A stretch of DNA of 64,000 nucleotides, taken from NCBI GenBank assembly GCA_028279405.1, contig JANQNU010000035.1:62001-126000 (forward strand), read 5' to 3'. Positions within the stretch are counted from its first letter, which is position 1, and each line of letters begins with the position of its first letter. The notes under the pieces are model-generated. The model searched no databases and had not been told where the DNA came from. It saw nothing but the letters and a program-made list of their open reading frames with translations. The position numbers and the translations under genes were made by a program. Source of the DNA: Phycisphaerae bacterium. Lineage in GTDB: Bacteria; Planctomycetota; Phycisphaerae; UBA1845; Fen-1342. Of this stretch, positions 556 through 51,519 are shown in pieces.

Positions 556-1176
556 ATGGAGAACCATGAGTCCCGGATCACGGTCTTACTTCAGAAAGCA
601 GGCAGCGGCGACACAGGTGCTTCCGCAAGACTTTTCCCGCTGATCTACGACCAACTTCGCAGGGCCGCGGCGATTCAGTTCCGCGCAGAGGATGCAGGTC
701 AGACGTTGCAGCCGACGGCGGTGGTTCATGAGGCTTATCTGCGGCTCGTCGGGCCGCGCGATATCCCTTGGGTCAGCCGCGGCCACTACTACGCAGCGGC
801 GGCGCAGGCGATGCGCCGAATTCTGATCGATCACGCTCGTTCTAGAGGGGCGCGGCGGGCGAGAGAAGCCGCTGTCGCGGCCTTCACTGACCCGGAATCC
901 CTTTCGCAGCAAGATCCTGAGGCGATTTTGGCAGTCGATCAAGCCTTGTCTCGCTTGGAGAGTGAGGACCCGGAAGCCGCTACAATTGTGAAGTTACGGT
1001 TCTTCGCCGGCCTCAGCGTGGAGCAGGCCGCTCGTGCCTCGGGAGTATCTTCTCGGACGGCGGCCCGCCTCTGGTCGCTCGCCCGCGCCAGGCTTCACCG
1101 CTTCCTGACCGAGCCGGGCGCGGAGTCAACCGATGAGTGGCGATCTGCAACAACGCGCGAGAGCGATCTTCCTTGA
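556..1176 (+). CDS. ECF-type RNA polymerase sigma factor (planctomycete TIGR02999-like group)
   Basis: A 206-residue protein with a sigma-70 region 2 (DQLRRAAAIQ, then QPTAVVHEAYLRL and the segment ending ILIDHARSRGARRA) and a region 4 helix-turn-helix near residues 140-180 (LRFFAGLSVEQAARASGVSS). The QTLQPTAVVHEAYLRL signature is typical of the planctomycete and acidobacterial ECF group that sits beside membrane Ser/Thr kinases. It overlaps the kinase gene by 44 bases, so the two are almost certainly co-transcribed and translationally coupled. I see no separate anti-sigma gene; in this group the kinase is thought to carry the signal, which here is inference from gene order. Confidence 0.93.
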   Translation: MENHESRITVLLQKAGSGDTGASARLFPLIYDQLRRAAAIQFRAEDAGQTLQPTAVVHEAYLRLVGPRDIPWVSRGHYYAAAAQAMRRILIDHARSRGARRAREAAVAAFTDPESLSQQDPEAILAVDQALSRLESEDPEAATIVKLRFFAGLSVEQAARASGVSSRTAARLWSLARARLHRFLTEPGAESTDEWRSATTRESDLP

Positions 1177-3544
1177 ACTTTCGACTCTCGACGGTCCGGG
1201 TGTGGCTGCGGAACTCGACCGGCTCACTCGAGGCGATGCCGAACTCCGTGAAGCTGTCGTCGACCTGATCGAGGCTCGGAATGCCGCCAGCGACGCCGGC
1301 ATCATGGCCGGTACGACCAAGACCGTCCCGACCGACACGATCATCGAGTCGCCCGGCTCGGTAATCGGTCCGTACAGGATTCTCCAGTTGATCGGAGAGG
1401 GTGGTTTCGGCTCGGTCTTTCTTGCCGAGCAGTTCGAGCCTGTCCGCCGGCGCGTCGCGCTCAAGATCATCAAGCTCGGGATGGACACCAAGCAGGTGAT
1501 TGCCCGATTCGAGGCCGAGCGCCAAGCGGTCGCGCTGATGGATCATCCACACATCGCGCGGGTCTTCGGCGCGGGTGCGACCGAGTCCGGACGCCCCTAT
1601 TTTGCGATGGAGTACGTCGTCGGGGATGCCATCACCAGATTTTCCGACGCGTACAAGCTCGACATTCCGTCTCGGCTGGCCCTCTTCACGCAGGTTTGTT
1701 CCGCGGTTCAGCACGCCCACACGAAGGGCGTCATCCACCGCGACTTGAAGCCCGCCAACGTGCTGGTCAGCATGGTTGACGGCAAGCCGTTCGCCAAGGT
1801 GATCGACTTTGGGATCGCCAAGGCGACGGCCACGCCGTTGACCGACAAGACGCTGTTTACCGAGCACCGCCAACTGATCGGTACGCCGGAGTACATGAGT
1901 CCCGAGCAGGCAGCGGGTTCACCTGACATCGATACACGAGCTGATGTGTATGCGCTTGGCGTATTGCTGTACGAGCTGCTTACCGGCGTTACGCCGTTCG
2001 ACGGCAAGCGGTTACGCTCGGCCGCATACGCCGAGATGCAGCGTATCATTCGCGAGGAGGATCCGCCGGCGCCGAGTCTGCGTCTGAACCGTGAGGTCGG
2101 GCGGCTCGTTGAGACAGCTGCCGTGCGCAAGCTCGACCCGCCGAAGCTCAGTACATCGATCCGAGGCGAGCTTGACTGGGTCGTAATGAAGGCGCTCGAC
2201 AAGGACCGTGCCCGTCGTTACGCGACCCCCGCGCAGCTCGGTGACGATATCGAGCGGCATCGCAAGGGTGAACCGGTGCATGCCGCCCCGCCGAGCGCGT
2301 CGTATCGATTCCGCAAGTTCGTGCGTCGCAACAAGGGTGCGGTGATCACGGGCAGCATGGTGGCTGTGGCGCTCCTGCTGGGTTTGATCGGCACGGCTTG
2401 GGGCTGGCTGGAATCGGACCAGGTAAACCGACTGCGTGCTGAGGATCTGGCCGTCGCGAAGTCAACGCTGGTCGATATCGTCGTCGAGACGACGGTCGAC
2501 ACACTCGAAGTCGACGAATTGGTGGCCTCTCGTGCTTCTGGCAAAGTGGCCAAGCGAGCGCTTGCCGAAGCGAGCATCATAGAATACCGAGCCGAAATCG
2601 TAGCGAAAGCGGCGATGGAAGGCAGAACGCCGTCACCGACGGAGCTGAGCGATATCGGGCTGCTCGCATACGTCGCTCGGCGGCGCGTCAAAGAGACGGT
2701 CGAACTTCGGGACCAACTGAAACAACAAGCCGATCGTGCTCGAAAAGGGGTCGCCGACATGATGTCGGTTCTAGTGGGCTGGCAAATGGGCGGCCTGGAT
2801 TGTCTAGACCCGGACACGGGGCTTTCCGTGTTCAACGCCGACCCTCTCGGTAGCACGATCGGGTTCGGGATGGATCTTGCTCTTCAACTAAAGGCTGAGC
2901 GAGATGCCCTTGCCAGCGAGTTGCAACAGCGGTACCTGGCCGAGGCCAATGCAAACGTCCGCTCCATCGTGGCCGATGCTGCTGCTTCGCAAGCCAATGG
3001 TGATTGGGATGTTTTGCTTGACGCGATCCGTGCCTATCGCAAGTATCGAGTCACCCATGACGAATCGCGTTATCGAGCGCTCGTTGATGCATTTGTGTCG
3101 ATTGACGTACGTTCTTCCCGTCACGTTTGGGCAGAATCTGCACTGCGGGCAGGTGATTTGGGAGCTGCGCTGACCATAGCACTCGAAGCACCAAGAGACC
3201 GTTTGACGGCACACGATCACAACACCGTGCCTTCAATCACCGCCGCGCTTTCAAGAGCCAATCCCTGCGAGCTCGCTGTACTGGCGATGACTCGGTACCG
3301 GTTGTCGGTTGCCGAGCAAGAGTGGCTTGAGTCTTCGGCCCGGATCGATCAACGCCTGTTGGGGCGCACGATGACCCGCCGCCAGCACCACGACGCTGCA
3401 ATCCGTCTGCTTAGTGAGGCAAGAGCGATCATGAACAACCTGGATGCACTCAACGAAGATGGCCTCCAGTGGGCGAATGATCCCGACGCGATCAATTTGA
3501 TCGCGGAGGCTGCGTCACTCGTACAAGATGGCGTGACGGAGTAA
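1133..3544 (+). CDS. Membrane-anchored Hanks-type Ser/Thr protein kinase
   Basis: An 803-residue protein. The kinase domain spans about residues 80-370: glycine loop GEGGFGSV at 88-95, VALK lysine at 111, HRDLKPANV from 202 (Asp204), DFG at 225-227 and GTPEYMSPEQA at 250-260, so it looks catalytically complete. One membrane helix follows at about 404-425. The roughly 380-residue C-terminal part is helical and would be extracytoplasmic; unlike many planctomycete relatives it shows no clear TPR or WD40 repeats. GGAG at 1122-1125 lies 7 bases before the ATG at 1133, supporting this start inside the sigma gene. Likely role: sense an envelope signal and phosphorylate targets, perhaps including its partner sigma factor (inference). 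Confidence 0.94.
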   Translation: MSGDLQQRARAIFLELSTLDGPGVAAELDRLTRGDAELREAVVDLIEARNAASDAGIMAGTTKTVPTDTIIESPGSVIGPYRILQLIGEGGFGSVFLAEQFEPVRRRVALKIIKLGMDTKQVIARFEAERQAVALMDHPHIARVFGAGATESGRPYFAMEYVVGDAITRFSDAYKLDIPSRLALFTQVCSAVQHAHTKGVIHRDLKPANVLVSMVDGKPFAKVIDFGIAKATATPLTDKTLFTEHRQLIGTPEYMSPEQAAGSPDIDTRADVYALGVLLYELLTGVTPFDGKRLRSAAYAEMQRIIREEDPPAPSLRLNREVGRLVETAAVRKLDPPKLSTSIRGELDWVVMKALDKDRARRYATPAQLGDDIERHRKGEPVHAAPPSASYRFRKFVRRNKGAVITGSMVAVALLLGLIGTAWGWLESDQVNRLRAEDLAVAKSTLVDIVVETTVDTLEVDELVASRASGKVAKRALAEASIIEYRAEIVAKAAMEGRTPSPTELSDIGLLAYVARRRVKETVELRDQLKQQADRARKGVADMMSVLVGWQMGGLDCLDPDTGLSVFNADPLGSTIGFGMDLALQLKAERDALASELQQRYLAEANANVRSIVADAAASQANGDWDVLLDAIRAYRKYRVTHDESRYRALVDAFVSIDVRSSRHVWAESALRAGDLGAALTIALEAPRDRLTAHDHNTVPSITAALSRANPCELAVLAMTRYRLSVAEQEWLESSARIDQRLLGRTMTRRQHHDAAIRLLSEARAIMNNLDALNEDGLQWANDPDAINLIAEAASLVQDGVTE

Positions 3545-11524: not shown

Positions 11525-12373
11525 TCATTCGCTGCACGGTCCAGCACCGAAGGCCCGCTGAAATGCGGAAAAGTCAGCCAGATCGATGTCGTCGTCGAGA
11601 TCCTTGTCAAATGGAGCAATACACGCGCTGGGCACGGAGGTGGTTGGCCCCAGTAAACACGATGTGGTAAATGCACGCGCGTCCAGTATCTCGACTTCAC
11701 CATTGCGATTGAAGTCGCCTGGAGGCGGAATCGCAGCTGTCGAACCAAACGTAAACGTTTCGATTTCGATGATCCCCTTCGCCAATGTCGAACACTCGCC
11801 AAATGAGAATTTGTTTTGTAGCGCTACTACTTCTGGAGCGGCTGCAAGCGTGAGTTCTCGAGTACCGTCGACGAACACTTCGGCTTGATCGTTCGTGATT
11901 CTCAGCTCGAAATCGTGGAAGGTGCTGCCTAGCAGTAGTGCTTTGCGTGCCAGTGCACAGTCCTGGCTGCTACCCCCTGTGATGAGCAGGATTTCGGTCT
12001 GATCGATGTAGAGCGTAAACTGTCGGCCGTCGTCATCGATGATGCTAATGCTCAGGCCTTTCCGGCAATCACTCACATTCATCTCTTGGATGATTCGAGC
12101 CCGAAAATGACAAGTCGCAACGGCGCTTGTGAAATCGACCGTCAGACAGGTGCTTTGGAAACACTGCCGCGATTCCGGATGGGTCGTTTCAATCCGAAGA
12201 ACGTTGCTCACTATTGACGGAGGATCTTCGTCCGGTCCGTCCATTAACAGAACGATGCCGTTTGTTTCCTGCGGAAGAACACCCAGAGCAGCGTCAAATT
12301 GGAGCTCGATTCCTTGAGCACTGACCGAAACACTTAGGCCAACGAGCCAAATAAAATGGTAAGCATTATGCAT
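11525..12373 (-). CDS. Secreted protein with C-terminal dockerin-like repeats
   Basis: A 282-residue protein with a short signal peptide (MHNAYHFIWLVGLSVSVSAQG) and AGGAGG 7 bases before the ATG. The body is predicted beta-rich (a concanavalin/laminin-G-like fold is possible but not demonstrable). It ends in paired Asp-rich calcium-loop repeats (DFNRNGEVEILDA and DKDLDDDIDLADF), the same arrangement as in its two neighbours. Several cysteine pairs in the body fit an exported, disulphide-containing protein. It is convergent with the EEP gene. Function unknown. Confidence 0.75.
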   Translation of the reverse strand: MHNAYHFIWLVGLSVSVSAQGIELQFDAALGVLPQETNGIVLLMDGPDEDPPSIVSNVLRIETTHPESRQCFQSTCLTVDFTSAVATCHFRARIIQEMNVSDCRKGLSISIIDDDGRQFTLYIDQTEILLITGGSSQDCALARKALLLGSTFHDFELRITNDQAEVFVDGTRELTLAAAPEVVALQNKFSFGECSTLAKGIIEIETFTFGSTAAIPPPGDFNRNGEVEILDARAFTTSCLLGPTTSVPSACIAPFDKDLDDDIDLADFSAFQRAFGAGPCSE

Positions 12374-12564
12374 CTTCTCTCCTCCTTGAATGTCAACGGC
12401 CTATATCACAATTCTAAGGAGGCCTCGAGGGTAGAACATGGTTTTTTGGACAGGATTTAGCGCGAAGCCATTCGTCGGAAGCGATACTCGCTAATCTGCC
12501 GTTTTTCGGGCTGTGGCGCGTGCCGCGCTCACTCTTCTGGGTCCAACACAGTTTGGAGTACACA

Positions 12565-14175
12565 ATGAGTCCACGAGGATTGCTTGTCGTTTCCTTGATC
12601 GGCTGTAGTGCTGCCCCCTGCCTGGGGACCGCCAGCGTTAGGTCAACCACCACGACAAGAGCGGAAACGGAGTTCAGTTGGGCGGGCTGGTACGGGCTCC
12701 AGAGTGATCGCGAGGCACCTCCGAGTGTCGACGATATCCAGTACGTCAACGGCGCGCTGGTGGGCTACGGGATGGGGTTTGCTCTGTTCCTGCCGACGGG
12801 CGAATTGTGCGCGCTCATTGATGGCCAGTCGTCCTTCATCCTGCCCGGTGAGGTGGAGGCCGGTCTCGCGATCTCGACGTCCGCGGAAGCCGGAAAGTCA
12901 ACGTCAACCGCGTGCGGTTCGGGCGTCATCCGAGAGCTCCCCACGTACGGGTCGCCGAACGGGGTGCGCGTCGAATACGACAGCGGGTACATTGTCGAGG
13001 TCCTCTCGGGCGGCGATCAGTCCAGCGGCGACACGCACGCGGCAGGGGCGGTCGGGTATGGCGCGACCTACACGAATGTCAGCAGGCAGCCGTTCGTCTA
13101 CTACACGGCCGCGTACGGGGAGATGAGTTGGGTACACACGGTCACGGACGGATCGCTCGGCGGCGACAAGCTCACGTCGGCGTCGATCAACAACAACCCC
13201 AACGCGTCGGTAATCGCGACTGTTGACAGCGAGTCTTTCACCCCGGGCGATCAGGTTCTCGTGTCGTGCGGCGCCGGGCCTGAGTGCTTCGGTCCTGAGT
13301 TCGCCTATGATCTCAACAACGACGGCGAGATCGACATCCGCATCCGCCCTGCGTCGCAGGCCACTCCGGGCGCCGGTTCGGTGACCGAATCCGGGGTGTG
13401 GAACGGCATCTTCTACAGCTTCACGTACATTGAGGGTGTCGACTACTTCTGCGTGGACGATCTCTCCTGCGTGTGGGTCAACGGAGGGGCCCGGTACACG
13501 AGCGGCGTGAACAGCTCCAGGTTCCAGGCCCTGCAAATTCATCTCGCCTTAAGCACGTCAGGCGGGGCGTCTGTCGGCGCTCAGGCGATCGTTGCCGTGA
13601 CGGACGACGGCAGCGTCACCTCCGCGACCACCGACCCGTCCTTCTCCATCGCTGTGCGCTCGGGCGTCGATGTCGTCCTCGCCGAGTTCTCCCACGCGGC
13701 CTCGATCACCGTGGAGCCGGGCGAGACGCTCGAGATCGATCAGAGCGTGATCCAGGTGGATAGCTATGCGTACGACTTGAACGAGGACGGCTTCGTCGAT
13801 GGGCTCGACCTCGACCTGATGGTCTTCGCGATCATGTTCCCCGGGACGCTGGACGTGACCGACCTCACACTGGAGGACGCAGAGGGCTTTCGCGCCTTCC
13901 TGACCAGCCCGCTGCTCGGGCAGCTCGACCTGGACGGCGCCTTCTTGAACGGCCCGGAGATCATGGGCGACTACGACCGCGATGGTGTTCTGGAGTTCGA
14001 GGACTACGCCGCTCTGCTGATCGCGTTCCGTCGTCTCCCGGCGGGCACATCGGACGTGCTCGGAATCCAGTCGAACAGCCCGGACTACAACGCCCTCGTC
14101 GACTTTGACTTCGACGGCGTGATCCGCCAGGACGACGTGCTCGAGCTCTTCAACCTCTCGGCGGCCCTGCCCTGA
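12565..14175 (+). CDS. Large secreted protein with Asp-rich calcium-binding repeats
   Basis: A 536-residue protein. The ATG at 12565 has GGAG 7 bases upstream and starts a signal peptide (MSPRGLLVVSLIGCSAAPCLG); the longer frame from 12520 is not used. The body is rich in Gly, Ser, Thr and Asp, with an internal EF-hand-like loop (DLNNDGEIDIRI) and three more near the C-terminus (DLNEDGFVDGLDL, DYDRDGVLEFEDY, DFDFDGVIRQDDV), which resemble dockerin type I repeats. No catalytic domain is recognised. A strong terminator follows. It is probably a surface or extracellular structural protein. Confidence 0.78.
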   Translation: MSPRGLLVVSLIGCSAAPCLGTASVRSTTTTRAETEFSWAGWYGLQSDREAPPSVDDIQYVNGALVGYGMGFALFLPTGELCALIDGQSSFILPGEVEAGLAISTSAEAGKSTSTACGSGVIRELPTYGSPNGVRVEYDSGYIVEVLSGGDQSSGDTHAAGAVGYGATYTNVSRQPFVYYTAAYGEMSWVHTVTDGSLGGDKLTSASINNNPNASVIATVDSESFTPGDQVLVSCGAGPECFGPEFAYDLNNDGEIDIRIRPASQATPGAGSVTESGVWNGIFYSFTYIEGVDYFCVDDLSCVWVNGGARYTSGVNSSRFQALQIHLALSTSGGASVGAQAIVAVTDDGSVTSATTDPSFSIAVRSGVDVVLAEFSHAASITVEPGETLEIDQSVIQVDSYAYDLNEDGFVDGLDLDLMVFAIMFPGTLDVTDLTLEDAEGFRAFLTSPLLGQLDLDGAFLNGPEIMGDYDRDGVLEFEDYAALLIAFRRLPAGTSDVLGIQSNSPDYNALVDFDFDGVIRQDDVLELFNLSAALP

Positions 14176-14183
14176 ACACCCGG

Positions 14184-14218
14184 ACCCGCATCGCGAGGCG
14201 ATGCGGGTCTTTCTCTTT
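14184..14218 (+). terminator. Rho-independent terminator after the secreted protein gene
   Basis: Perfect 11-base stem ACCCGCATCGC / GCGATGCGGGT with loop GAG (14184-14208), followed by a T-rich CTTTCTCTTT. It lies 9 bases after the stop at 14175. Confidence 0.85.
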
Positions 14219-14232
14219 GCAGGGCCAGATGT

Positions 14233-14455
14233 TCAGTCGCCCGACGCGAACTCTATCTCGTAGTGCTCGACCCCTGCCTCCATGAACATGGCGGCAGTGA
14301 CCATTCTGCCGGGGACGAGTAAAGATCGATGGCGTCGAAGCGGAAGTGCAGGAAGAGCGATACCAAGCCCAGGGGGTCGAAGGTGGGGCGTTCGAGCTTG
14401 ATGATCAGCGCAAAGGGTGTCCCTCGATACACAAGTCAATCGTATCGGGTTTCAT
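14233..14455 (-). pseudogene. Possible frameshifted small gene directly after ampC
   Basis: An ATG at 14455 overlaps the ampC stop in an ATGA and opens MKPDTIDLCIEGHPLR before a stop. The other two minus-strand frames continue with protein-like sequence: LIIKLERPTFDPLGLVSLFL then FRFDAIDLYSSP in one, and AAMFMEAGVEHYEIEFASGD ending at 14233 in the other. Joining them needs two indels, so if this was a gene it is now broken. I do not recognise a family; the call rests only on composition and the coupled start. Confidence 0.3.
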
Positions 14456-15651
14456 GGAATCGAGCTGTCGTACGTCGACGTTGCGGCCAGCAGATCTGCC
14501 GCGAGCCGGTGCGCGGCTTCGACCCGCGCCTGGATGGGAAAGTTCTTGTTCGCTAGAAGCGCGATCGCAAGTTCTTCTTGTGGGACGACCAGCACATAGG
14601 CACCAAAGCCACCGGTCGAGCCTGTTTTGCTGAGTACAAACGGTCGATCCGCTTGCATGGGGTCTATCCCGACAACGGGCGCAGCTTCGAGGATCATCGT
14701 GTAGGAATTTCCCGATTTGAGTTCGTCACTATCGATCGGATGCCTGTACTTCTCCCAGATCATCGCCTGATGGAACGACCCCGTATCAAACCAGCTTGTG
14801 TGTGTTCGACACACTGCTCTCGCCAGAGTGACTCGACGGCTGTCGCAACGAAGATTGAGTTTGAGGAATTTCAGGAGATCCGAGCTGGTCGTCTTTATCC
14901 CGTACGCTTCATCGGCTAATAGCGCGGGGCTGACGCGCACCCGCTCGCCCCTACGGTTGTGGCCCCACGCGTAGTTGCTTCGTTTCTCCTCAGGAACATT
15001 GATGAAGGAACTCTTCATCCCGATGTTGGGGAACAGACCCTGCTCCATCAGTTCGACAAAGTCCTTGCTCTTTGTTCTTGCGACGAGCAAGCCCAACAAG
15101 CCGATGCTCGGATTTGCGTAGTGCCTGTGGGTGCCCTCTGGAAACTCCGGAACCCAATCGCGGTAGTATTGAATGAGGGCGTTTTCTGTATTGACATGAT
15201 CCGGGAGCTGCAAAGGGAATCCGCCCGCGGTATGTGTCGCAAGATGCAGTACTGCTACGTCACCAAGCGGCGTTTCGGCCAGTTCAGGCAGGTAGTCCCC
15301 AATTGGCGCGCCTAGCGAAACCAGGCCTTCCTGTTCGGCCATAGCCGCCAATGTCGCAGTAAAGAGCTTCGAAACAGATCCGATCTCGAAGAGAGTTTCC
15401 TGAGTGACAGCCTCACCAGATGACAGGTCGACGACGCCGTAGTTACCGAACCGATCCTTTCCTCTGTGTGAAACGGCGACGGCCATACCCGGAATGTCGT
15501 ACTCGGACATCAGATCGAGTAGAAGCCGATGATTGATCGATGGCAAAGAGCCACCCTGCTGTCTAGCAGAACTGGTGCTACACGCACCGAGACCCATCAT
15601 CGCAAACAAAGCCGTCGCGTAGCCGACAATTGACCTCGATATTCCTGGCAT
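14452..15651 (-). CDS. ampC: Class C (AmpC-type) beta-lactamase-like lipoprotein
   Basis: A 399-residue protein with all class C motifs: SVSK at 92-95 (nucleophile Ser92, Lys95), YAN at 178-180 followed by PSIGLLG, and KTG at 342-344 in SKTGSTGGFGAYV. The C-terminal LANKNFPIQARVEAAH matches true AmpC enzymes, making a generic serine-esterase assignment less likely. The signal sequence ends in a lipobox LGAC (Cys24), so it should be an anchored lipoprotein, unusual for AmpC, which is normally soluble in the periplasm. AGGAAG precedes the ATG. The family hydrolyses beta-lactams; peptidoglycan-related or peptidase activity cannot be excluded. No ampR-like gene is adjacent, so expression may be constitutive. 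Confidence 0.88.
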   Translation of the reverse strand: MPGISRSIVGYATALFAMMGLGACSTSSARQQGGSLPSINHRLLLDLMSEYDIPGMAVAVSHRGKDRFGNYGVVDLSSGEAVTQETLFEIGSVSKLFTATLAAMAEQEGLVSLGAPIGDYLPELAETPLGDVAVLHLATHTAGGFPLQLPDHVNTENALIQYYRDWVPEFPEGTHRHYANPSIGLLGLLVARTKSKDFVELMEQGLFPNIGMKSSFINVPEEKRSNYAWGHNRRGERVRVSPALLADEAYGIKTTSSDLLKFLKLNLRCDSRRVTLARAVCRTHTSWFDTGSFHQAMIWEKYRHPIDSDELKSGNSYTMILEAAPVVGIDPMQADRPFVLSKTGSTGGFGAYVLVVPQEELAIALLANKNFPIQARVEAAHRLAADLLAATSTYDSSIP

Positions 15652-16033
15652 TCACATCTTCCTGAGGCACACGAGTTTAATGGCAGCATAGCTGCATCGA
15701 GATCGACTGCTGAGACAGGCTCACTCAAAACAACCAACTACACACTAAGTGGATCGAACCCGGATACACAAGCGCACTTCGAACGTGATCCGTGAAGCTG
15801 TCCGCCTCAATAGTCGACTGCGACAGGCGGGATACTGTTGACTCTGGGAAGAGTATCCTCAGATACAAGGCCTTGCGAAGGATGATCGCCACCAGTGTGC
15901 TTCGTAGTGCTGCCGAGGCCCCGCCGATGGCTACTCGTTCAAATCGATACGAAGTGCCTGTGTCGGCGAGATACGTTTGAACCCCACCTAGCTGCGGAAG
16001 GTCTCAGCAGTTGGCGAGGTCTTCCGATTCATC
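15652..16033. other. Gap between ampC and the cassette array; no gene seen
   Basis: Low coding potential on both strands. A 62-codon frame (15792-15980) lacks a ribosome site and a recognisable domain. No tRNA-Pro-type direct repeat is visible here, so the array as defined starts at 16034. The region could include an older, eroded cassette end. Confidence 0.5.
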
Positions 16034-16080
16034 AATCGGGGTGACTGGACACCAATAGAACTTTCTCTGGCTCAGATCAG
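16034..16080 (+). repeat. Direct repeat plus Y end, leftmost copy
   Basis: The tRNA-Pro 3'-end repeat (16034-16049) followed by the start of the Y sequence (CACCAATAGAACTTTCTCTGG). It shares about 45 bases with the copies at 17791 and 19918, then diverges. A local inverted repeat CTGGCTCA/TGAGCCAG follows within 16067-16093. Confidence 0.75.
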
Positions 16081-16300
16081 TCTATTGAGCCAGCAGACGC
16101 CGGTTCAGCTTTCGCGATGGAGTACGCATGCCACCGTGAATACCCGATGTATGTCCAATCTAACCGACAAGATCCAGTCCTCCTTCGCCATCAACGTTCG
16201 GAGCCACACCGGGCCGCCGACAGCCTCCCACAGACGATCGTTGCATAGCTTCAGGTCACGGATCTGTCGCGGCGGGAATTGTTTACAGATACAATCATCG

Positions 16301-16837
16301 ATGAGCATGGCTAGGAATGTGGAGATCAAGGCCCGGGTATCTCACGAGCGCTTGAAAAGCATCGAACGCGAAGCGAGAGCTCGCTCGAAGACACCGGTTG
16401 AGCAACTCGAGCAGAATGACACCTTCTACGCGGTTGGCTCTGGCCGCCTGAAGCTGCGCCGCTTTGCCGATGGCGCCGCCGAGCTCATAGCGTACGATCG
16501 ACCTGATGATCAGGGCCCAACCCTTTCAAGCTACGTCCGCTGCCCTTGTTCTGATCCCGACTCGCTCGACGAAGCGCTCTCACAGACCATCGGCGTACGG
16601 TCCCGGGTGAAGAAATCACGCCGCGTCCTGATCGTCGATCAAACACGGGTTCACCTTGATTGCGTGGCAGGTCTCGGCTCCTTCGTCGAACTTGAGGTCA
16701 TTTTGCGCGAAGATCAAACGCTCAAGGAGGGCCAGGCGATTGCCCACCATCTCATGCATGAACTCAGGATCAAGTCCGATTCTCTTGTACGAGAGTCTTA
16801 TGTCGATCTCATCGAGCGTGTGGAAGAACGAGAATAA
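16301..16837 (+). CDS. CYTH-domain (CyaB-like class IV adenylate cyclase) protein
   Basis: A 178-residue single CYTH domain. The N-terminal MARNVEIKARV carries the ExK start of the signature; further conserved basic and acidic residues follow (GRLKLRRF, VKKSRRVLIV, VHLDCVAGLGSFVELEVIL). CYTH enzymes bind triphosphates through an eight-stranded tunnel with metal; CyaB-type members can make cAMP, others are thiamine triphosphatases or phosphohydrolases, and activity cannot be assigned here. ATG codons at 16301 and 16307 are both possible and neither has a clear ribosome site; 16085 is rejected as its upstream residues are repeat-derived. It is cargo of cassette unit 4, convergent with a GNAT gene. 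Confidence 0.85.
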   Translation: MSMARNVEIKARVSHERLKSIEREARARSKTPVEQLEQNDTFYAVGSGRLKLRRFADGAAELIAYDRPDDQGPTLSSYVRCPCSDPDSLDEALSQTIGVRSRVKKSRRVLIVDQTRVHLDCVAGLGSFVELEVILREDQTLKEGQAIAHHLMHELRIKSDSLVRESYVDLIERVEERE

Positions 16838-17014
16838 GGTCTGCGCTATCAACCAGACCTTCCCGTCGCCCCGAGCGATGAGAGCCCGGACCAGGACAGC
16901 GGCGTCCGAATCCCTTGCGGAGTAGGGACATTAGCGTCGCCGTCGGAATGCTCCCAAACACTTCGCCTCAGCCGTTCTCGCACCGGAACTCACTTTCCCG
17001 TGCAGCATGCAATG

Positions 17015-17467
17015 CTATTGCAGCGTCTTTCGCTGGATGACGACACCGATCTGCTCGGCGTTAAGCTCGAAGCCGACGATCTCAAACCCTGACTTCAGGT
17101 TGAGCACGATCATTGGCGAATTGGATGCTCTCGTGCGCGTCTCGATTCTTGAGTACCCATGTTCGGCCGCCCACTGGTGCTGATCAGAGAGTAATTGTTG
17201 GGCGATCCCTTGCTTCCTATACTCCGGATGAACACCGCCCAGCCAACTGTAAAACAAAGTGGAGCCCAGCCGGTATCCGAGCTTAAATCCGATGAGATCG
17301 CCATCGATGCTCCTTGCTCGCGTGATCGCGGGGCCTGTAATGTGCGGCAATCGTGAGCGCACATACATCGGATCAAACGTTTCGAACAGTCGGCTACACA
17401 GCTCGATTACTTCGTCCTCGCCCGCACGGTCAATCCTACTTGTCGTTTCAATAGCGATATTTGCCAT
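17015..17467 (-). CDS. GNAT-family N-acetyltransferase
   Basis: A 150-residue single-domain acetyltransferase. The acetyl-CoA-binding motif A is clear (LGGVHPEYRKQGIAQQLLSDQHQWA, with the R/Q-x-x-G-x-A/G loop), followed by motif B (SRIETRTRASNSPMIVLNLKSGFEIVGFE). Substrate unknown; small GNATs of this kind acetylate amines, antibiotics or protein N-termini. ATG 17467 is used; a GTG two codons upstream is an alternative. It is cargo of cassette unit 4 and is oriented opposite to its companion CYTH gene, unlike the uniform orientation seen in integron arrays. Confidence 0.9.
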   Translation of the reverse strand: MANIAIETTSRIDRAGEDEVIELCSRLFETFDPMYVRSRLPHITGPAITRARSIDGDLIGFKLGYRLGSTLFYSWLGGVHPEYRKQGIAQQLLSDQHQWAAEHGYSRIETRTRASNSPMIVLNLKSGFEIVGFELNAEQIGVVIQRKTLQ

Positions 17468-17626
17468 ATGCACGAGTCTATACGATGGCTTTTCCAGGTG
17501 TAACCTCCTCCACGCTTAGGTTCGACAGCGGTGATTTTCGAGGTCGTTTCGAAACTGGCAGAGCAGCCGTAAGATCCGATTTCAAAACGGAGTCAACAAG
17601 CCCGATTGGCGATGATCGTAGTACAC

Positions 17627-17790
17627 AATCGGGGTGACTGGATTGTGCTGCCCAGCGCCGTCGCTTCGCTCGGCGTGGACTACGCGAGACGCCCGCTTCG
17701 CCTGACGGCTCGCGGTCGTCGGTCGCCGGTTCAAATCCCCAGTAACGCAGATTGCCTGCCGACCCGCCTGACGGCAGATCAACGGGTAAT
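17627..17790 (+). repeat. X end, full copy 1, flanked by tRNA-Pro-type direct repeats
   Basis: 164 bases starting with AATCGGGGTGACTGG and running to the next direct repeat at 17791. It is about 90 percent identical by eye to 22756-22917. It includes a GC-rich part shared with the genome's REP-like sequences, a T-arm-like CGGTTCAAATCCCC and a terminal inverted repeat built on CTGCCG...CGGCAG. Open frames through it on both strands are repeats, not genes. Confidence 0.8.
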
Positions 17791-17885
17791 AATCGGGGTG
17801 ACAAGACACCAGTTGAACTCTTTGTAGCCCAGATCGGCCTCTGGAGCTTGAAAACGCGGGTATTGGTTTCAGGGTGAGAACTGAC
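17791..17885 (+). repeat. Direct repeat plus Y end, long copy
   Basis: AATCGGGGTGAC followed by Y. It aligns over about 90 bases with 19918-20010 (shared AGATCGGCCTCTGG, then GAAAACGCGGG/GAAACGCAGAG and GTGAGA). Contains AGTTGAACT. It forms the left terminus of cassette unit 3. Confidence 0.75.
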
Positions 17886-18080
17886 ACGCTCAGAGTCCCG
17901 CTATGCCCGATGAGTGTCTCATCGCACAGACGGAAACATTGGTCGATCGCCGTGGCCGCTGTCTTCGCCGCGGGGCGAAGCAACCTCGCCGGGCCTAGTA
18001 GAGCTATCAGGAAATGCCTAGCCGCTCACAGCTGAGGACCTGTCAGTAGCCTCCGCCCACCGGGTTGGTGTAAAGCATGC

Positions 18081-18124
18081 TTGACATGGTGTTTTGCTAA
18101 CTATACACTATGTTCCATGGAACA
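18081..18124 (+). promoter_or_regulatory. Promoter and palindromic operator of the membrane protein-HTH pair
   Basis: TTGACA (18081-18086), 17-base spacer, TACACT (18104-18109), then a perfect 14-base palindrome TGTTCCA/TGGAACA at 18111-18124 that would overlap the transcription start. The HTH protein encoded second in this operon is the natural candidate to bind it. Confidence 0.65.
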
Positions 18125-18145
18125 AACATTTGAGAAACTTGTCGC

Positions 18146-18583
18146 ATGAGTCACCAGGAACGCGCCAGCGCCGTGGCAATCGTCATCGGCCTCTTGTTGA
18201 ACGGATACGTGTCGATTCGCCTGTGGCAGCTCTTTGAAGCTGGGGCCCTGTCGGGCGAGAACGCCCCGATGATGTGGGCCCAGGCCATCGTTTGGGTCAT
18301 CCCTGCTGCCATCGTGCTCACCATTGTTTCGAACATCGTCTTTGCGATTGTGACGAAGGGCAGTACGCAGAAGACAAACACAGATGAACGTGACCATCTG
18401 TACAGGTCTCGAGGCATGTGCGTAACGCTTATCGTCTTCGGCCTTGGCTTCACCGCGATGTTGATCGGGCTCGCTGTTGGCTGGCCAGTCGTTTTTGGAC
18501 TGACCCTTATGTACGCATCAGCAGCACTGGGCGACCTGCTCGGTCAATGCACGCGGCTGGTCAGCTATCGGATCGGGTGTTGA
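18146..18583 (+). CDS. Small four-helix membrane protein, partner of HTH regulator
   Basis: A 145-residue protein with four hydrophobic segments (about residues 8-28, 45-70, 95-112 and 113-132) separated by short loops, including a charged cytoplasmic-type loop KGSTQKTNTDERDHLYRSRG. Small membrane proteins of this layout are frequently encoded directly before a YgzD/XRE-type regulator; the function of the pair is not established. The stop at 18583 is one base before the regulator start, so they are coupled. Ribosome site is weak. Cargo of cassette unit 3. Confidence 0.8.
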   Translation: MSHQERASAVAIVIGLLLNGYVSIRLWQLFEAGALSGENAPMMWAQAIVWVIPAAIVLTIVSNIVFAIVTKGSTQKTNTDERDHLYRSRGMCVTLIVFGLGFTAMLIGLAVGWPVVFGLTLMYASAALGDLLGQCTRLVSYRIGC

Positions 18584-18584
18584 T

Positions 18585-18848
18585 ATGGCCGAACTGCGAA
18601 TCACGAACACAATCCGTCGTTTGCGATTCGAGAATGACGAGATGACGCAGCAGGCGCTTGCGGATGCCGTCGGCTGCACTCGCCAGACCATCGCAGCCAT
18701 CGAGAAGGCGAAGTACTCGCCGAGCCTTGAACTCGCAGTGCGCATCGCGATGGCGTTTGAACGGCCTTTGAGCGAAGTTTTCATTTTCGAGAGCGACGGG
18801 ACAGGGATTGCAGTGTCGCGAGAACCCGATCGGGACTCGGCTCGATGA
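18585..18848 (+). CDS. XRE-family helix-turn-helix regulator
   Basis: An 87-residue protein that is essentially one lambda-repressor-like DNA-binding domain (LRFENDEMTQQALADAVGCTRQTIAAIEKAKYSPSLELAVRIA) with a short acidic tail. It belongs to the short 'YgzD-like' type found next to membrane genes. The palindrome at 18111-18124 upstream of the operon is its likely operator, giving autoregulation. It could be part of a two-gene maintenance or stress module in the cassette, but I see no toxin signature in the partner. Confidence 0.88.
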   Translation: MAELRITNTIRRLRFENDEMTQQALADAVGCTRQTIAAIEKAKYSPSLELAVRIAMAFERPLSEVFIFESDGTGIAVSREPDRDSAR

Positions 18849-19173
18849 AGCAAACACTCGTGTACGTAGCCCTTGTTGTCACATCCGCAAAAAACAGCAC
18901 GTCTCGGGGGCGGCGATCTCGCCCATCGCGACTTGCCGAGGCCGAGCAACTAAGCGGGCGACATATGCCCACGGAGCGCTGGGGTGCATTCAGTAAGCAT
19001 CGCGAGTTCGTTGCGACTCGCGAATGTATCCGCGAGTCAGTTCGCCACACCGTCTTATGGATATTCAGCTGAAATGACAAGGTGAGATGGCATCCTGCAG
19101 AAGTGAACCGGGATCAACACGCCCGCACCGCTCGGCAGTGACACTCGACCAGATGATACGAAGAGGGAGTGCA
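18849..19173. other. Non-coding stretch with CGCGAGT inverted repeats inside unit 3
   Basis: No convincing gene. CGCGAGT (19001-19007), ACTCGCG (19016-19022) and CGCGAGT (19031-19037) form alternative 7-base-stem hairpins. ACTTGCCGAGGCC near 18937 recurs near 19892 next to a Y end, suggesting a shared ancestral segment. This may be the remnant of an internal cassette boundary. Confidence 0.45.
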
Positions 19174-19803
19174 ATGAAGCTACAAAGATCCGAGTGGATC
19201 GTCGTGATCAGTCTGCTCCTGTTGAGCTTCATCCCATGTGTTGGTGGTACGATCCGGCTGATTGAACTCGGGCTCGGCGCGACATTTGAATTTCTGCCCG
19301 AAAAACCAGAGATCAGATCCACTCCCATTCCCGTGCAGATCCATCTCGCAACCGCCATCCCCTACTGTGTTTTGGGAATCGGACAGTTTCTCCCCAGCGT
19401 CCGTCGTCGACACCCAAAGCTACATCGAATCACAGGCCGGGTGCTCGCTCTTGCCGGAGTTGTTTCTGTCTTGTCTGCGTTGTGGATGACTCAGTATTAC
19501 GCGTATCCGGACGGCGTTCAGTCGCCTCTCCTCTATGTGGTCCGATTCACCGTTGGGGTTACGATGCTCGGGTCCATCTGCTTGGGGATCGCTAATGCGA
19601 TGAAGAGAAAGATCGGCACGCATCAGGCTTGGATGATTCGAGCATATGCTCTGGGCCAAGGCGCGGGAACACAGTCGTTAATAGGGATCCCGTGGGTCTT
19701 AGCGGCTGGAGAACCTACTGGGACTTCACGCGATTTCGTAATGACAGGAGGCTGGGTCATCAACGCTCTCGTAGCCGAGTGGATCAACCGCCGGCAGCGT
19801 TAG
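19174..19803 (+). CDS. DUF2306-like multi-pass membrane protein
   Basis: A 209-residue protein with ATG at 19174 and GAGGGAG 5 bases upstream. Five to six hydrophobic segments are visible (about 10-30, 52-72, 85-103, 117-140, 165-180, 188-203). The motif RRRHPKLHRITGRVLALAG resembles the conserved HP-x-LHR-x-x-GR loop of DUF2306/DUF2269-type proteins, and GTHQAWMIRAYALGQGAG fits the second conserved loop. These proteins are of unknown function. Last gene of cassette unit 3 before the boundary. Confidence 0.78.
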   Translation: MKLQRSEWIVVISLLLLSFIPCVGGTIRLIELGLGATFEFLPEKPEIRSTPIPVQIHLATAIPYCVLGIGQFLPSVRRRHPKLHRITGRVLALAGVVSVLSALWMTQYYAYPDGVQSPLLYVVRFTVGVTMLGSICLGIANAMKRKIGTHQAWMIRAYALGQGAGTQSLIGIPWVLAAGEPTGTSRDFVMTGGWVINALVAEWINRRQR

Positions 19804-19917
19804 ATTCCTCGATCCGCAGGCTGGTTCAAATCGGTCAGGTGTGTCCTTGGGTGACGGGACAAGATTGAACTGCCCAGTAAGTGCGGATGGCACTTGCCGA
19901 GGCCATCACGCTCGCTG

Positions 19918-20010
19918 AATCGGGGTGACTGGACGCCAATAGAACTTTTTCTGGCCCAAATCGGCCTCTGGTCGTCGGAAACGCAGAGTTTGACCTTGCC
20001 GTGAGATTAA
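19918..20010 (+). repeat. Direct repeat plus Y end; degenerate copy just upstream
   Basis: AATCGGGGTGACTGGA at 19918-19933 followed by Y. Immediately left (about 19820-19878) lie a degenerate T-arm-like GGTTCAAATC and a second worn Y-like segment (GGGTGACGGGACAAGATTGAACT), which looks like a nested empty or deleted unit. Confidence 0.72.
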
Positions 20011-20052
20011 GCTCAAGCTCGCGATCATCGGTGCGAGTGGTAGCATTCAGGC

Positions 20053-20589
20053 ATGAATACATATCGATCTGGACCAGAGACCGAAAGAATCGAGCACCGC
20101 GCGTTCACGCTCAATGATTGCGAGGCGTTCTATCGCCTCAATAGCCATTCAGAGGTCATGCGCTTCACCGGCGAGCCACCGCTGAATTCACTGGAAGACG
20201 CTCGACAGGCCATCGCCGACTATCCGGATTTCGAAACGGTCGGTTACGGACGGTGGGCCTGTGTCTTGAAAGAAACCCGTGCCGTCATCGGATTCTGCGG
20301 CCTGAAATACTTGCCGGATCTGAACGAGGTTGATGTGGGGTTCCGGTTCCTGCCTGAGTATTGGGGGCAGGGGATTGCAACAGAAACGTGTTCCGCGTGC
20401 ATCGCGTTCGGTTTCGATGTTCTCAAGCTCAACTGCATCCTGGGATTGGTGCTCGCAGAAAACAAAGCGTCGATGCGCGTCCTCGAAAAGTGTGGGATGA
20501 CCAGGCACGGCGAAATCACGTGCAACGGTGAGCGTGCTCTGAAGTACGAAATCGCTCGCTCGACCAAAGTCCAGAAACTGAGCGGATAA
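20053..20589 (+). CDS. RimJ/RimL-type GNAT acetyltransferase
   Basis: A 178-residue protein of the Acetyltransf_3 type: N-terminal IEHRAFTLNDCEAFYRLNSHSEVMRF, central VIGFCGLKYLPDLNEVDVGFRF, acetyl-CoA motif LPEYWGQGIATETCSACIAFGF, and C-terminal LAENKASMRVLEKCGMTRHGE. These features are those of enzymes that acetylate ribosomal protein N-termini or small molecules such as aminoglycosides or toxins; the substrate here is unknown. It is the only cargo gene of cassette unit 2 (774 bases repeat to repeat), the smallest unit, so this one gene with its ends may represent the minimal mobile form. Confidence 0.92.
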   Translation: MNTYRSGPETERIEHRAFTLNDCEAFYRLNSHSEVMRFTGEPPLNSLEDARQAIADYPDFETVGYGRWACVLKETRAVIGFCGLKYLPDLNEVDVGFRFLPEYWGQGIATETCSACIAFGFDVLKLNCILGLVLAENKASMRVLEKCGMTRHGEITCNGERALKYEIARSTKVQKLSG

Positions 20590-20630
20590 TCCAGCCGGCA
20601 CGACAAGACGCTGGCTCAAACGTCGGGCAG

Positions 20631-20725
20631 GTCAAATCCCACAACAACGCAATCGCCCGCCGACCCGCCTGGAGGCGGATCAACGGACAATAATCGGGGT
20701 GACAAACGGCTATTGAACTTTTTGA
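20631..20725 (+). repeat. Partial X end, direct repeat and short Y end
   Basis: GGTCAAATCCCACAACAACGC through GACAAT (20630-20691) matches the last third of X, with the hairpin CCGCC-TGGA-GGCGG replacing the CCGCCTGACGGC of the other copies. The repeat AATCGGGGTGAC follows at 20692 and a short Y (GGCTATTGAACTTTTTGAGC). Confidence 0.72.
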
Positions 20726-21003
20726 GCAAGAAACGGCTACCTGGAATCCCGGTTTTGTTCAGCTTGTCGAACGCATCGCTGGATGACCCCTTGGATCGTG
20801 TCACTCCAGCATGAAGTACTTCGCTCCCCGGCCCCTTGCCCGCTGCTCGCGTCCACGCAGTCTGCGTCGGACGATGAATCCGAAGCAGTTAGGACCAGAC
20901 ACTTGGTACGGGTGTTTTGTCACACTTCCGGGAATCAGCGACTTCGGGAATCTGTCGCGGAACTTCTGAGAGTGGCGACCCACGTTGCCGACGTTGTTAC
21001 GGT

Positions 21004-21843
21004 CTATATTTTCCTCGCGACCACTGCCATATCAGGAGAGTCTGGGGAAAATGCAGAGCCTGCAACATCAGAATAGAACTCTATGGCCTGGAATCCGTTC
21101 TTCTCGAGTTCCTCTCGCAGTGACTCTCTACTGAAGTACTGCAGCCAGTTGTAAACGATGCGAGTTCTTGCCTTCTCGACTATCGTGTACTTATCAAGGG
21201 TCACCTTTTCCTTGTCATATTTGAAGGTGTTCAAGAAGCCGTAGTAGTCTTCCGTAGACCAAAAATTGTCGAGTTGGTTGCGCTCGTATGCGGCAGCTTC
21301 ATCTCTGCCGTCGAACACATTCAGCGAATGAACATCCAAGAACACTGACCCGCTAGGCTTGAGGAAGGCGTGGAACTTGGCAAGCAACGTCGCTCTCTGC
21401 GAAGGACTCAGCGCACAGAAATCGCAGAAAATCATCGTAATGAGATCGAGTCGTTTCCCGGTCTCGAACTCAAGGTAGTCCTCCTCGCAATAGTCAATCT
21501 CTAGTCCCTTCTGGTGAGCAACTTTCCGTGCATGTTGGATGGATCTTGCCGAGAAGTCGATTCCAGAAACCTCAGCGCCAGCGGACGCGAACAGGGTCGT
21601 GTATAGCCCCGGACCACACCCAAAATCCGCGATGCTCGTGCCGCCGTCTACTCCGAAGTGGGACACGATCCAGTTTGCGGAACGAGCAATGAAACCTGCG
21701 TTTCGGGATGCAAGGTCAATGGACTCATTTAGATGGTATTCAAGCATCTTCGTCGAAGTGTGTTCATCAGTCCATAGGTCCTTTGCCGTGTAGAACTGAA
21801 ATGGCGCAGGACGCGAACGCATTTCTTCCAGTACGTCAAACAC
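21004..21843 (-). CDS. Class I SAM-dependent methyltransferase
   Basis: A 279-residue protein with a Rossmann-type SAM-binding domain: motif I IADFGCGPGLYT (about residues 70-81), motif II acidic residue in VSGIDFSARSI, and the post-motif DLITMIFCDFCALSPSQR. It resembles small-molecule methyltransferases (UbiE/Methyltransf_11/25) and has an N-terminal helical cap (WTDEHTSTKMLEYHLNESIDLASR). Substrate unknown. It is cargo of cassette unit 1, divergent from the MerB-like gene, with a 200-base spacer between them. Its codon choice looks less GC-rich than that of the flanking chromosomal genes. Confidence 0.9.
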   Translation of the reverse strand: MFDVLEEMRSRPAPFQFYTAKDLWTDEHTSTKMLEYHLNESIDLASRNAGFIARSANWIVSHFGVDGGTSIADFGCGPGLYTTLFASAGAEVSGIDFSARSIQHARKVAHQKGLEIDYCEEDYLEFETGKRLDLITMIFCDFCALSPSQRATLLAKFHAFLKPSGSVFLDVHSLNVFDGRDEAAAYERNQLDNFWSTEDYYGFLNTFKYDKEKVTLDKYTIVEKARTRIVYNWLQYFSRESLREELEKNGFQAIEFYSDVAGSAFSPDSPDMAVVARKI

Positions 21844-22047
21844 CGATGCCCCTCTTTCACATAGCTCGGTTATAGGAAAGTCTGACTATCAACTGTAGTT
21901 CACAAATGTGCGGTCTACAGCGATGGCAGTTACTGTCGCAAGTCTCATTTTAACAAGTGGTCTCCCGTCGGTCTCGCCATGTTTCCTGCGCGACAGGCGG
22001 CCCCTGCCTAGCGCTCACTTGAAGTCCGTGTTATCCTTGAGGGTGTC

Positions 22048-22725
22048 ATGAATGTTTCGACCCTGCACGAGACGATCATCGCGTCGTTCCTTGAACGCCA
22101 GCGCCCCCCGACTCTATGTGAAATCGCCTCCCGCTTTCGGCGCGACGCGGCCGACGCGCGGCGGGCGCTGCGCGAGCTCGCCGACAATCACGGAGTGGTG
22201 CTTCACCCCAACTCCGAGGACATCTGGATCGCCCACCCATTCTCCGCAGCACCAACGACATTTGTGGTAAGCTCGGGCACAAGCAAGTGGTGGGGCAACT
22301 GTGCCTGGTGTTCGCTGGGTGTGGCAGCGCTTGCCGGCGGAACGGCGACCATCGAAACGCGAATCGGTGCGATCGATGATCATGCGACGATCAGGATCGA
22401 AAACGGAGAGCTGCTCGACACCGACTTCGTTGTGCACTTTCCGATACCGATGCAGCGCGCTTGGGACAATGTCATCTACACATGCTCTGTTATGCTGCTC
22501 TTCCGCAATGAAGCCCAAGTGGACAAGTGGTGCGCCACGAGAGGTATCGCCAAAGGAGATGTGCGACCGATCGCACAAGTTTGGCGTTTCGCGGCCGAGT
22601 GGTACGCACGCCACGCCGACCCGAACTGGACCAAGTGGTCAGCACAACAAGCCGCGGCGATATTCTCGCGTCACGGTCTAACCGGTCCTATCTGGACGCT
22701 TCCAAGCGAGGCCGCGCGCTTCTGA
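22048..22725 (+). CDS. MerB-like (organomercurial lyase family) protein with altered active site
   Basis: A 225-residue protein with the MerB layout: an N-terminal winged-helix-like domain (residues 8-60, LCEIASRFRRDAADARRALREL) and a MerB-type core starting NCAWCSLGVAALAG. MerB uses Cys96, Asp99 and Cys159. Cys88 here matches the first and Cys146 (YTCSVMLLF) the last, but the position of Asp99 is Gly91, so classic protonolysis of carbon-mercury bonds is doubtful. No merA, merR or merT is nearby. GAGGG precedes the ATG. It sits next to the X end of cassette unit 1, closest to the tRNA. Confidence 0.78.
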   Translation: MNVSTLHETIIASFLERQRPPTLCEIASRFRRDAADARRALRELADNHGVVLHPNSEDIWIAHPFSAAPTTFVVSSGTSKWWGNCAWCSLGVAALAGGTATIETRIGAIDDHATIRIENGELLDTDFVVHFPIPMQRAWDNVIYTCSVMLLFRNEAQVDKWCATRGIAKGDVRPIAQVWRFAAEWYARHADPNWTKWSAQQAAAIFSRHGLTGPIWTLPSEAARF

Positions 22726-22755
22726 TCGCAACGGCCCCCGAGAAACCGTGAAAGA

Positions 22756-22917
22756 AATCGAGGTGACTGGGATTGTGCTGCGCAGCGCCGTTTCGCTCGG
22801 CGTGAACTGCGCGAGACGCCCGCTTCGCCTGACAGCTCGCGGTCGTCGGTCGCCGGTTCAGATCCCCTGTAACGCAGATTGCCCGCCGACCCGCCTGACG
22901 GCAGATCAACGGGCAAT
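22756..22917 (+). repeat. X end, full copy 2, adjacent to tRNA-Pro
   Basis: 162 bases from the variant repeat AATCGAGGTGACTGG to the tRNA 3' end. It is nearly the same as 17627-17790. Outer inverted repeat TTGCCCG/CGGGCAA spans the last 40 bases. This is the junction expected between an integrated element and its intact tRNA target. Confidence 0.8.
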
Positions 22918-22919
22918 AA

Positions 22920-22994
22920 TCGGGGTGACTGGATTTGAACCAGCGACCTCTGCGTCCCGAACGCAGCGCTCTGGCCAAGCTGAGCTACACCCCG
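22920..22994 (-). tRNA. tRNA-Pro (anticodon CGG)
   Basis: The minus-strand transcript folds as a full cloverleaf: acceptor CGGGGTG/CACCCCG, D stem GCTC/GAGC, anticodon stem CTGCG/CGCAG with loop TTCGGGA (anticodon CGG), variable AGGTC, T stem GCTGG/CCAGT with loop TTCAAAT, discriminator A. The 3' CCA is not encoded; the cca gene is at 33408-34664. Its 3' end is the repeated core of the cassette array on its downstream side. Confidence 0.96.
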
Positions 22995-50498: not shown

Positions 50499-51452
50499 TC
50501 AGGCCCGCGGGTGGGCTTCGTCGTATTCTTCCTTGACCGTTTCGCCGGACAGGTGCGTGTAGATTTGCGTGGTTGAGAGGCTCTGATGACCAAGCATCTC
50601 CTGCACGCTGCGTAGGTCGGCACCCTTGCGCAGCATGTGGGTTGCGAAGCTGTGTCGCAGGGTGTGCGGGCTGACGGAGAGGTCCAGGCCCGCCTCGAGG
50701 AGGTACTTGTCGAGCTTTCGGCGAACGCTACGTGTGCTGAGTCGCTGGCCGTGCTTGTTGATGAACAAGGCGTCGGCGTCGAACGAGGTGCTGCGGGTAT
50801 CGTTCCGGCGCAGGTCGAGGAAGTGCAGGATTGCCTGCACGGCGCCGGGGCCCAGCGGGATGACGCGCTGTTTCTTGCCCTTGCCGCGGACGTGTACGAC
50901 GCTGTTGCCCAGGTCGACGTCGGCGATATTCAGCGCGACAAGCTCGCTGACCCGCATTCCCGTCGAGTAGAGCACCTCGAGCATCGCCCGGTCGCGTGCG
51001 CCGAGCAGCGTCGTGGTGTCCGGGTTCGACAGAAGCCGATCGATCTGCTCGATTTCGAGGCACTTCGGCAGGCGCTTGTCCTGCTTGGGTGTCCGGATCG
51101 ATGAGACCGGATTGCTCGCGATATAGTTGCGCTTGACGAGGAACTTGTAGAAGCTGCGCAGCGTCGCCAGCTTGCGGGCGATGGTGCTCTTGCAGTAGTT
51201 CTTGTCGCGCAGTTCGGACATGAAGAGTCGCACGATATCCGTGTCGACTGTCATGAGTTTGCGATTGACTTGCTCGCCGGTCAGCTCGTTGCTGCCGTTG
51301 GCGCCCTGGCTTTCCTGCGCGGCGCGCTTCGACAGAAAGCTGCAGAACTGCTGCAGATCGGCGGCATAGCACTTCGAGGTATGAGGCGAGAAGTGCCGCT
51401 CGGCCTGCAGATAGTTCATGAACTGCTGAATCAGGCTCGCTTGTTCGCTCAT
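50499..51452 (-). CDS. Tyrosine recombinase, XerC/XerD family
   Basis: A 317-residue phage-integrase-family recombinase with SAM-like N-terminal domain (LIQQFMNYLQAERHFSPHTSKCYAADLQQF) and full catalytic set: Arg167 (TGMRVSE), Lys191 region (VRGKGKKQRVIPL), His263-x2-Arg266 (HTLRHSFATH), His289 (LGHQS) and Tyr298 (TTQIYTHL). Length and motifs are those of housekeeping XerC/D, which resolve chromosome dimers at dif. The start at 51452 gives the conventional N-terminus; an ATG at 51506 adds 18 residues. It is the last gene of a three-gene minus-strand unit. It is the only recombinase in the window and could be tested for action on the cassette array, though a dedicated enzyme elsewhere is more likely. 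Confidence 0.93.
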   Translation of the reverse strand: MSEQASLIQQFMNYLQAERHFSPHTSKCYAADLQQFCSFLSKRAAQESQGANGSNELTGEQVNRKLMTVDTDIVRLFMSELRDKNYCKSTIARKLATLRSFYKFLVKRNYIASNPVSSIRTPKQDKRLPKCLEIEQIDRLLSNPDTTTLLGARDRAMLEVLYSTGMRVSELVALNIADVDLGNSVVHVRGKGKKQRVIPLGPGAVQAILHFLDLRRNDTRSTSFDADALFINKHGQRLSTRSVRRKLDKYLLEAGLDLSVSPHTLRHSFATHMLRKGADLRSVQEMLGHQSLSTTQIYTHLSGETVKEEYDEAHPRA

Positions 51453-51519
51453 GACTGGCTCACTCAGCTGCACCGACGAATTGCCGGGATCATCGACGTT
51501 CCACATAATGCCCTACTCT

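Follow-up and report, generated by a model that had tools for sequence, protein, structure and literature searches.

We describe a chromosomal gene, here called bla, in the genome of a Phycisphaerae bacterium. It very probably encodes a class C serine beta-lactamase that is intact and probably active, and that this planctomycete lineage gained laterally from an unsampled donor. Its protein is a divergent new member of a well-known family, and its chemistry is ordinary. By analogy with the established chemistry of class C enzymes, Ser92 would attack the beta-lactam, Lys95 and Tyr178 would assist, and water would free the product; acting outside the inner membrane, the enzyme would break down both penicillins and cephalosporins. 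All coordinates refer to the window, the whole stretch of 64,000 nucleotides that was analysed, and the features discussed below are collected in Table 1.

Table 1. Coordinates of bla, its motifs and its surroundings in the window
Feature	Position	Strand	Basis
Class C (AmpC-type) beta-lactamase (bla), 399 aa	14452..15651	-	ORF reading, PF00144 and NF033085 matches, motifs, model
AGGAAG, Shine-Dalgarno-like, 6 bases before the bla ATG	15658..15663	-	read from sequence
Predicted signal peptide, residues 1-23, assuming cleavage before Cys24	15583..15651	-	inference
Lipobox-like LGAC, residues 21-24; Cys24 is the predicted lipid site	15580..15591	-	sequence; motif comparison
S92-V-S-K95 motif with the nucleophilic Ser and the Lys (S64 and K67 in E. 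coli AmpC)	15367..15378	-	alignment
Y178-A-N180 (Y150/N152 of E. coli AmpC)	15112..15120	-	alignment
K342-T-G344 (K315-T-G317 of E. coli AmpC)	14620..14628	-	alignment
Spacer, 276 bases, between two convergent stop codons	14176..14451	.	coding-signal and Pfam searches
Terminator-like hairpin behind neighboring gene 12520-14175	14182-14210	+
Array of tRNA-Pro 3'-end copies (context, not part of bla)	16034..22994	+	repeat searches
Starts of the array copies	16034, 17627, 17791, 19918, 20692, 22756 (imperfect), 22918
tRNA-Pro(cgg), end of the array	22994-22920	-

Family assignment and predicted fold

A first reading of this DNA, made from its letters without database searches (the sequence-only reading), had proposed an AmpC-type beta-lactamase, and an open reading frame of exactly the proposed extent is present. 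It is read from the minus strand; in the same register, several stops break up the plus strand. The frame opens with an ATG, immediately 5' of which lies an in-frame stop codon. A promoter scan at bla returned 0 sites, with 1.0 expected by chance, and says little. The protein is a full-length match to the Pfam Beta-lactamase family PF00144 (1.9e-69) and scores 443.9 bits (3.2e-133) against the NCBI class C equivalog NF033085, above the curated cut-off of 415 bits and far beyond chance. It matched 45 families; among the 25 listed, the 24 named families besides NF033085 all fell under their own cut-offs, and the best of these 24 was blaPNC (369.6 of 750). Judged by these matches, the reading frame is a true class C beta-lactamase, for which hydrolytic activity is predicted.

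The class C motifs SVSK, YAN and KTG are all intact, as had been said from the letters of the sequence. Across 59 further class C rows aligned with the protein, 62 positions reach 93% conservation or more; the protein keeps 57 of these, S92, K95, Y178, N180, K342-T-G344, E300 and R376 among them, and it also keeps Q148, which is conserved in 56 of the 59 comparators. None of the five departures (L182I, Y203H, L269M, G335A and V337A in E. coli numbering) is a catalytic residue. The position of N346 is occupied by Ile373, a residue also found there in 12 of the 59 comparators.

The best AlphaFold2 model of the protein, built on an alignment of 11 sequences, had a pLDDT of 79.1 and a pTM of 0.83, with residues 1-35 below a pLDDT of 50; the mean pLDDT of the other four models was 53-67. 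The best matches of this model among solved structures are class C enzymes. Against 5evi_B, Foldseek gave a TM score of 0.93 (target length) and the structure comparison VIA a Z score of 51.4, with 1.8 A over 355 residues. The predicted model thus has a class C fold. In its full-length family match, catalytic motifs and predicted fold, the bla protein resembles the enzymes of Pseudomonas syringae (5evi), FOX-4 (5cgs) and E. coli AmpC. It differs from the known class C enzymes in its local identity to the sampled members (35.8-48.5%), in a host that lies outside the Pseudomonadota, and in its neighborhood, where a profile search of the bla neighbors scanned found no LysR/AmpR-type gene.

The N-terminus and a predicted membrane anchor

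The sequence-only reading had pointed to a lipobox, LGAC, with its cysteine at residue 24, and the motif is indeed there. The n-region carries one positive charge (Arg6), the hydrophobic core covers approximately residues 8-22 and ends in LGAC, and a Ser/Thr-rich stretch follows Cys24, in which an A-x-A site is absent and S-x-A (S27-S-A29) alone is present. Lipobox-like N-termini were counted in 15 of 398 open reading frames from 554 kb of host genome, bla included, by a crude rule that may admit chance ones; five of the 15 have Gly at -2, such as LGGC, MGGC and VGGC. The host genome also holds two LspA-type genes (PF01252 over cut-off), so that signal peptidase II is present. It is somewhat more likely than not that the bla protein is a membrane-anchored lipoprotein: following export, Cys24 would be lipidated, signal peptidase II would cut before it, and the enzyme would be held at the membrane.

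An alternative that is quite possible, short of probable, is an ordinary soluble periplasmic AmpC: signal peptidase I would cleave close to S27-S-A29/R30, and Cys24 would be one more of the many cysteines seen in AmpC signal peptides. E. coli AmpC is such a soluble enzyme, cleaved by signal peptidase I. An E. coli AmpC is among the 10 of 59 class C comparators that pass a loose PROSITE-like lipobox pattern. A cysteine stands at residues 14-30 in 29 of the 59, and the tighter motif [LVI][ASTVIG][GAS]C occurs in five. These comparator N-termini were set by rule, as the ATG nearest 38 residues before a conserved block, so some of the starts may be wrong, most clearly that of Devosia. Such frequencies favor the soluble form and are at odds with the earlier statement of rarity for AmpC, as far as lipobox-like cysteines in the precursors go. 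Four of the five tight-motif comparators fall in one six-row clade, itself nested in the 17-row clade that contains the bla protein (see below), and one of the five, the Caballeronia enzyme, likewise lacks A-x-A after the cysteine. Against the soluble form stand the S-x-A without A-x-A, the Ser/Thr-rich stretch and the host-like character of LGAC. The earlier call of a lipoprotein is plausible in view of its host-like lipobox, the LspA-type genes and the missing A-x-A, and is weakened by the similar strings in 5-10 of the 59 class C precursors.

NDM-1 belongs to class B, and PenA and BRO belong to class A. A review of beta-lactamase biogenesis, in the part of it available, names these three as lipid-anchored enzymes of Gram-negative bacteria and none of class C (PMC10235803). 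Like the bla product, they are beta-lactamases with a lipobox-like signal peptide, but they are of other molecular classes and their anchoring is reported as fact, whereas that of bla is predicted. A true anchor on the bla protein would extend lipid-anchored beta-lactamases to class C.

The surroundings of bla and the tRNA-Pro array

Behind bla, the spacer had been taken for decayed coding sequence, a view that the searches do not bear out. Short open stretches are present in it, but Pfam found 0 families on the spacer pieces (two minus-strand, one plus-strand), matches of the pieces to the fetched loci were at chance level (best E about 0.02 to 0.1), and by coding score no frame of the spacer is coding, whereas bla's own frame scores as coding.

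On the other side of bla lies an array of copies of a tRNA-Pro 3' end. The terminal sequence of the tRNA, ATCGGGGTGAC, occurs exactly and on one strand at 16035, 17628, 17792, 19919, 20693 and 22919 (the tRNA itself), with an extra copy bearing one mismatch at 22757; in 100 shuffles it occurred 0.02 times on average. The copies are spaced by 1593, 164, 2127, 774, 2064 and 162 bases, and those at 16034, 17791 and 19918 share up to 80 bases rightward at 70-73% identity. Between them lie genes of the CYTH, GNAT (two), DUF2178-like, HTH, DUF2306, methyltransferase and MerB-like types, and no recombinase was found among the eight array genes scanned. The array looks like the result of serial insertion of small elements at the tRNA end. 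A 144-base repeat (17659-17802 and 22786-22929, 94% identical) ends in a copy of the tRNA-Pro end, and a part of it, about 58 bases long, is found again at 20646-20703 with 90% identity.

The bla gene starts 382 bases to the left of the array, whose leftmost repeat is at 16034, so the earlier description of the gene as just outside a gene-capture region is correct. We considered bla as a cassette of the array and rejected this, given that it lies left of the leftmost copy and not between two repeat copies; left of 16034, on the array strand within the window, the 11-base core does not recur, either exactly or with one mismatch. A tyrosine recombinase at 50499-51506 (minus strand) was likewise rejected as the array integrase: it passes the XerC cut-off and falls far below that for integron integrases. 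The array terminus was not found in the viral contigs scanned. It occurs once more in the host genome, at C89:52820-52846 (locus L167, G000:C89:43001-62000), 2.4 kb behind a tRNA-Pro(tgg) (L167:7348-7421) and with a Peptidase_S15/PepX_C gene in between; elements of the same kind may have used this as a second site.

Phylogeny, distribution and origin

In a tree of 72 rows, with an outgroup of 10 S12 loci chosen from those fetched for the phylum (L024-L052), a 100/100 split places the bla protein together with the class C enzymes. It falls within a 17-row clade (100/97) that holds ACC-1, the Caballeronia enzyme and other Pseudomonadota enzymes, and its end branch is long (1.23). Two loci were left out of the tree and of the lipobox counts (L112, the same gene as L004, and L138, a cut match), one cut match (G1040) was outside the comparator set, and eight of 12 Photorhabdus loci, L021 and L022 were outside the tree. 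Grouping of the bla protein with the host's own paralogue was rejected by the AU test (p 0.00018), while a topology that keeps the 59 other class C rows together, apart from the bla protein, was not (p 0.36). In a quick tree without outgroup, no starred set contained the bla protein. The other class C rows in the tree come from Pseudomonadota. The bla protein thus groups with class C and not with other S12 hydrolases; it may be nested in the sampled class C enzymes or lie just outside them.

The NF033085 cut-off was passed in one of 392 genomes sampled from the phylum and in one of 397 sampled from the class, in both cases the host genome itself, and of 114 genomes of the order, one was found to carry bla in a protein search (E up to 1e-30); the three samples overlap. 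For comparison, 41 of 398 genomes from the phylum to which Pseudomonas xionganensis belongs passed the class C cut-off, and E. coli alone did so among 14 control genomes. Weaker matches (E up to 1e-30) occurred in 30 other genomes of the 392, where the listed scores did not exceed 150 bits. We read these as other S12 hydrolases; they could account for the frequency with which "putative beta-lactamases" are noted in planctomycete genomes. In the part of one such study available, at least one putative beta-lactamase is reported in each planctomycete genome (PMC5147048). These proteins come from the same phylum as bla, and their families are not stated in that part; their presence in every genome contrasts with the single genome, that of the host, over the curated class C cut-off. 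With the curated cut-off, true class C enzymes can be told apart from planctomycete "beta-lactamases" that are so named in a loose sense. In the part of a report available, a Stieleria strain is described as beta-lactam resistant although known determinants were not found (PMC10541342).

The composition of bla differs from that of its host. Its G+C content is 0.557, with lower values in 2.5% of the 398 host open reading frames (mean 0.624), and it stands at the 11.6th percentile for GC3 and the 7.8th for codon score. Comparably low values occur in several of the array genes to the right, though not in the MerB-like gene (0.606), and to the left the gene at 11525-12373 (minus strand), which has a weak dockerin match, has an unusually low G+C of 0.523. 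Low G+C extends over much of the stretch from 11 to 23 kb, so that composition alone does not single out bla, and the comparison with flanks called for earlier sets bla apart from the host's reading frames but not from these neighbors. No near donor was found, the best comparator standing at 48.5% identity. A close-relative scan of viral contigs matched three stretches, none a relative of bla, and a scan of genome contigs by exact peptide patterns, suited to close relatives only, gave 19 loci, the best at 45%. The bla protein matched 1624 plasmid records, all below 60% identity, and 22 phage records, which were kept out of the tree and of which the best (MW462191.1) stood at 44%. This last, a freshwater record filed as phage (L168), holds a class C beta-lactamase adjoining an AmpR-like gene and several bacterial-type genes, and its DNA may be bacterial rather than phage.

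Lateral transfer is the best reading of bla, as the patchy distribution and the composition fit it. The hint of transfer in the sequence-only reading is thus likely to be right. It is quite improbable that bla is a host peptidoglycan enzyme, an S12-family DD-peptidase or esterase resembling AmpC. Many PF00144-type proteins exist in planctomycetes, as the weaker matches attest, and the best solved sequence match of the bla protein is titled beta-lactamase/D-alanine carboxypeptidase, but bla passes the class C cut-off that the other listed phylum matches fall well short of, and the AU test rejects its grouping with the paralogue. A deep class C branch that this lineage has long retained while others lost it, or a class C line at home in a group outside the sample, would suit the long branch and the unrejected position outside the other 59 rows. 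The solved class C enzyme of Mycobacterium smegmatis (5e2h, among the structure matches) shows that the family is not confined to the Pseudomonadota. Single occurrences in the three overlapping samples and the low G+C speak against such a branch, which we regard as unlikely.

Contamination or misbinning could be suspected from the 92-contig assembly and from the absence of bla in every other searched genome of the order. It is extremely improbable: bla lies 76 kb into a contig of 156 kb, and to its right nrdR, an ATP-cone gene and the next open reading frame were matched in 14 of the 14 family regions fetched, by which the contig belongs to the bin, soundly so on the right side. Two outer reading frames of the window, 1133-3544 and 34892-36643, each match one family region at 31%. 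None of the 14 window reading frames tested between 7382 and 22725 matched the 14 family regions at 1e-8 and no tRNA-Pro was found in them, so an empty site could not be demonstrated there. The planctomycete label given earlier also fits the genome, with seven PF07596 matches over cut-off compared to none in the 14 control genomes; the dockerin-type matches in the genes adjoining bla agree, weak as they are and below Pfam's cut-off.

That bla represents a membrane-bound AmpC of a new deep branch, a lipid-anchored class C enzyme from a lineage branching outside the sampled Pseudomonadota radiation, is rather unlikely. On the reading that we prefer, a laterally gained class C enzyme, the isolated, intact and divergent copy would be a resistance gene in an environmental planctomycete, with no known donor. 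The presence of such a copy beside a gene-capture array, in one of 392 sampled genomes of the phylum, suggests that bacteria of this kind are occasional holders of resistance genes.
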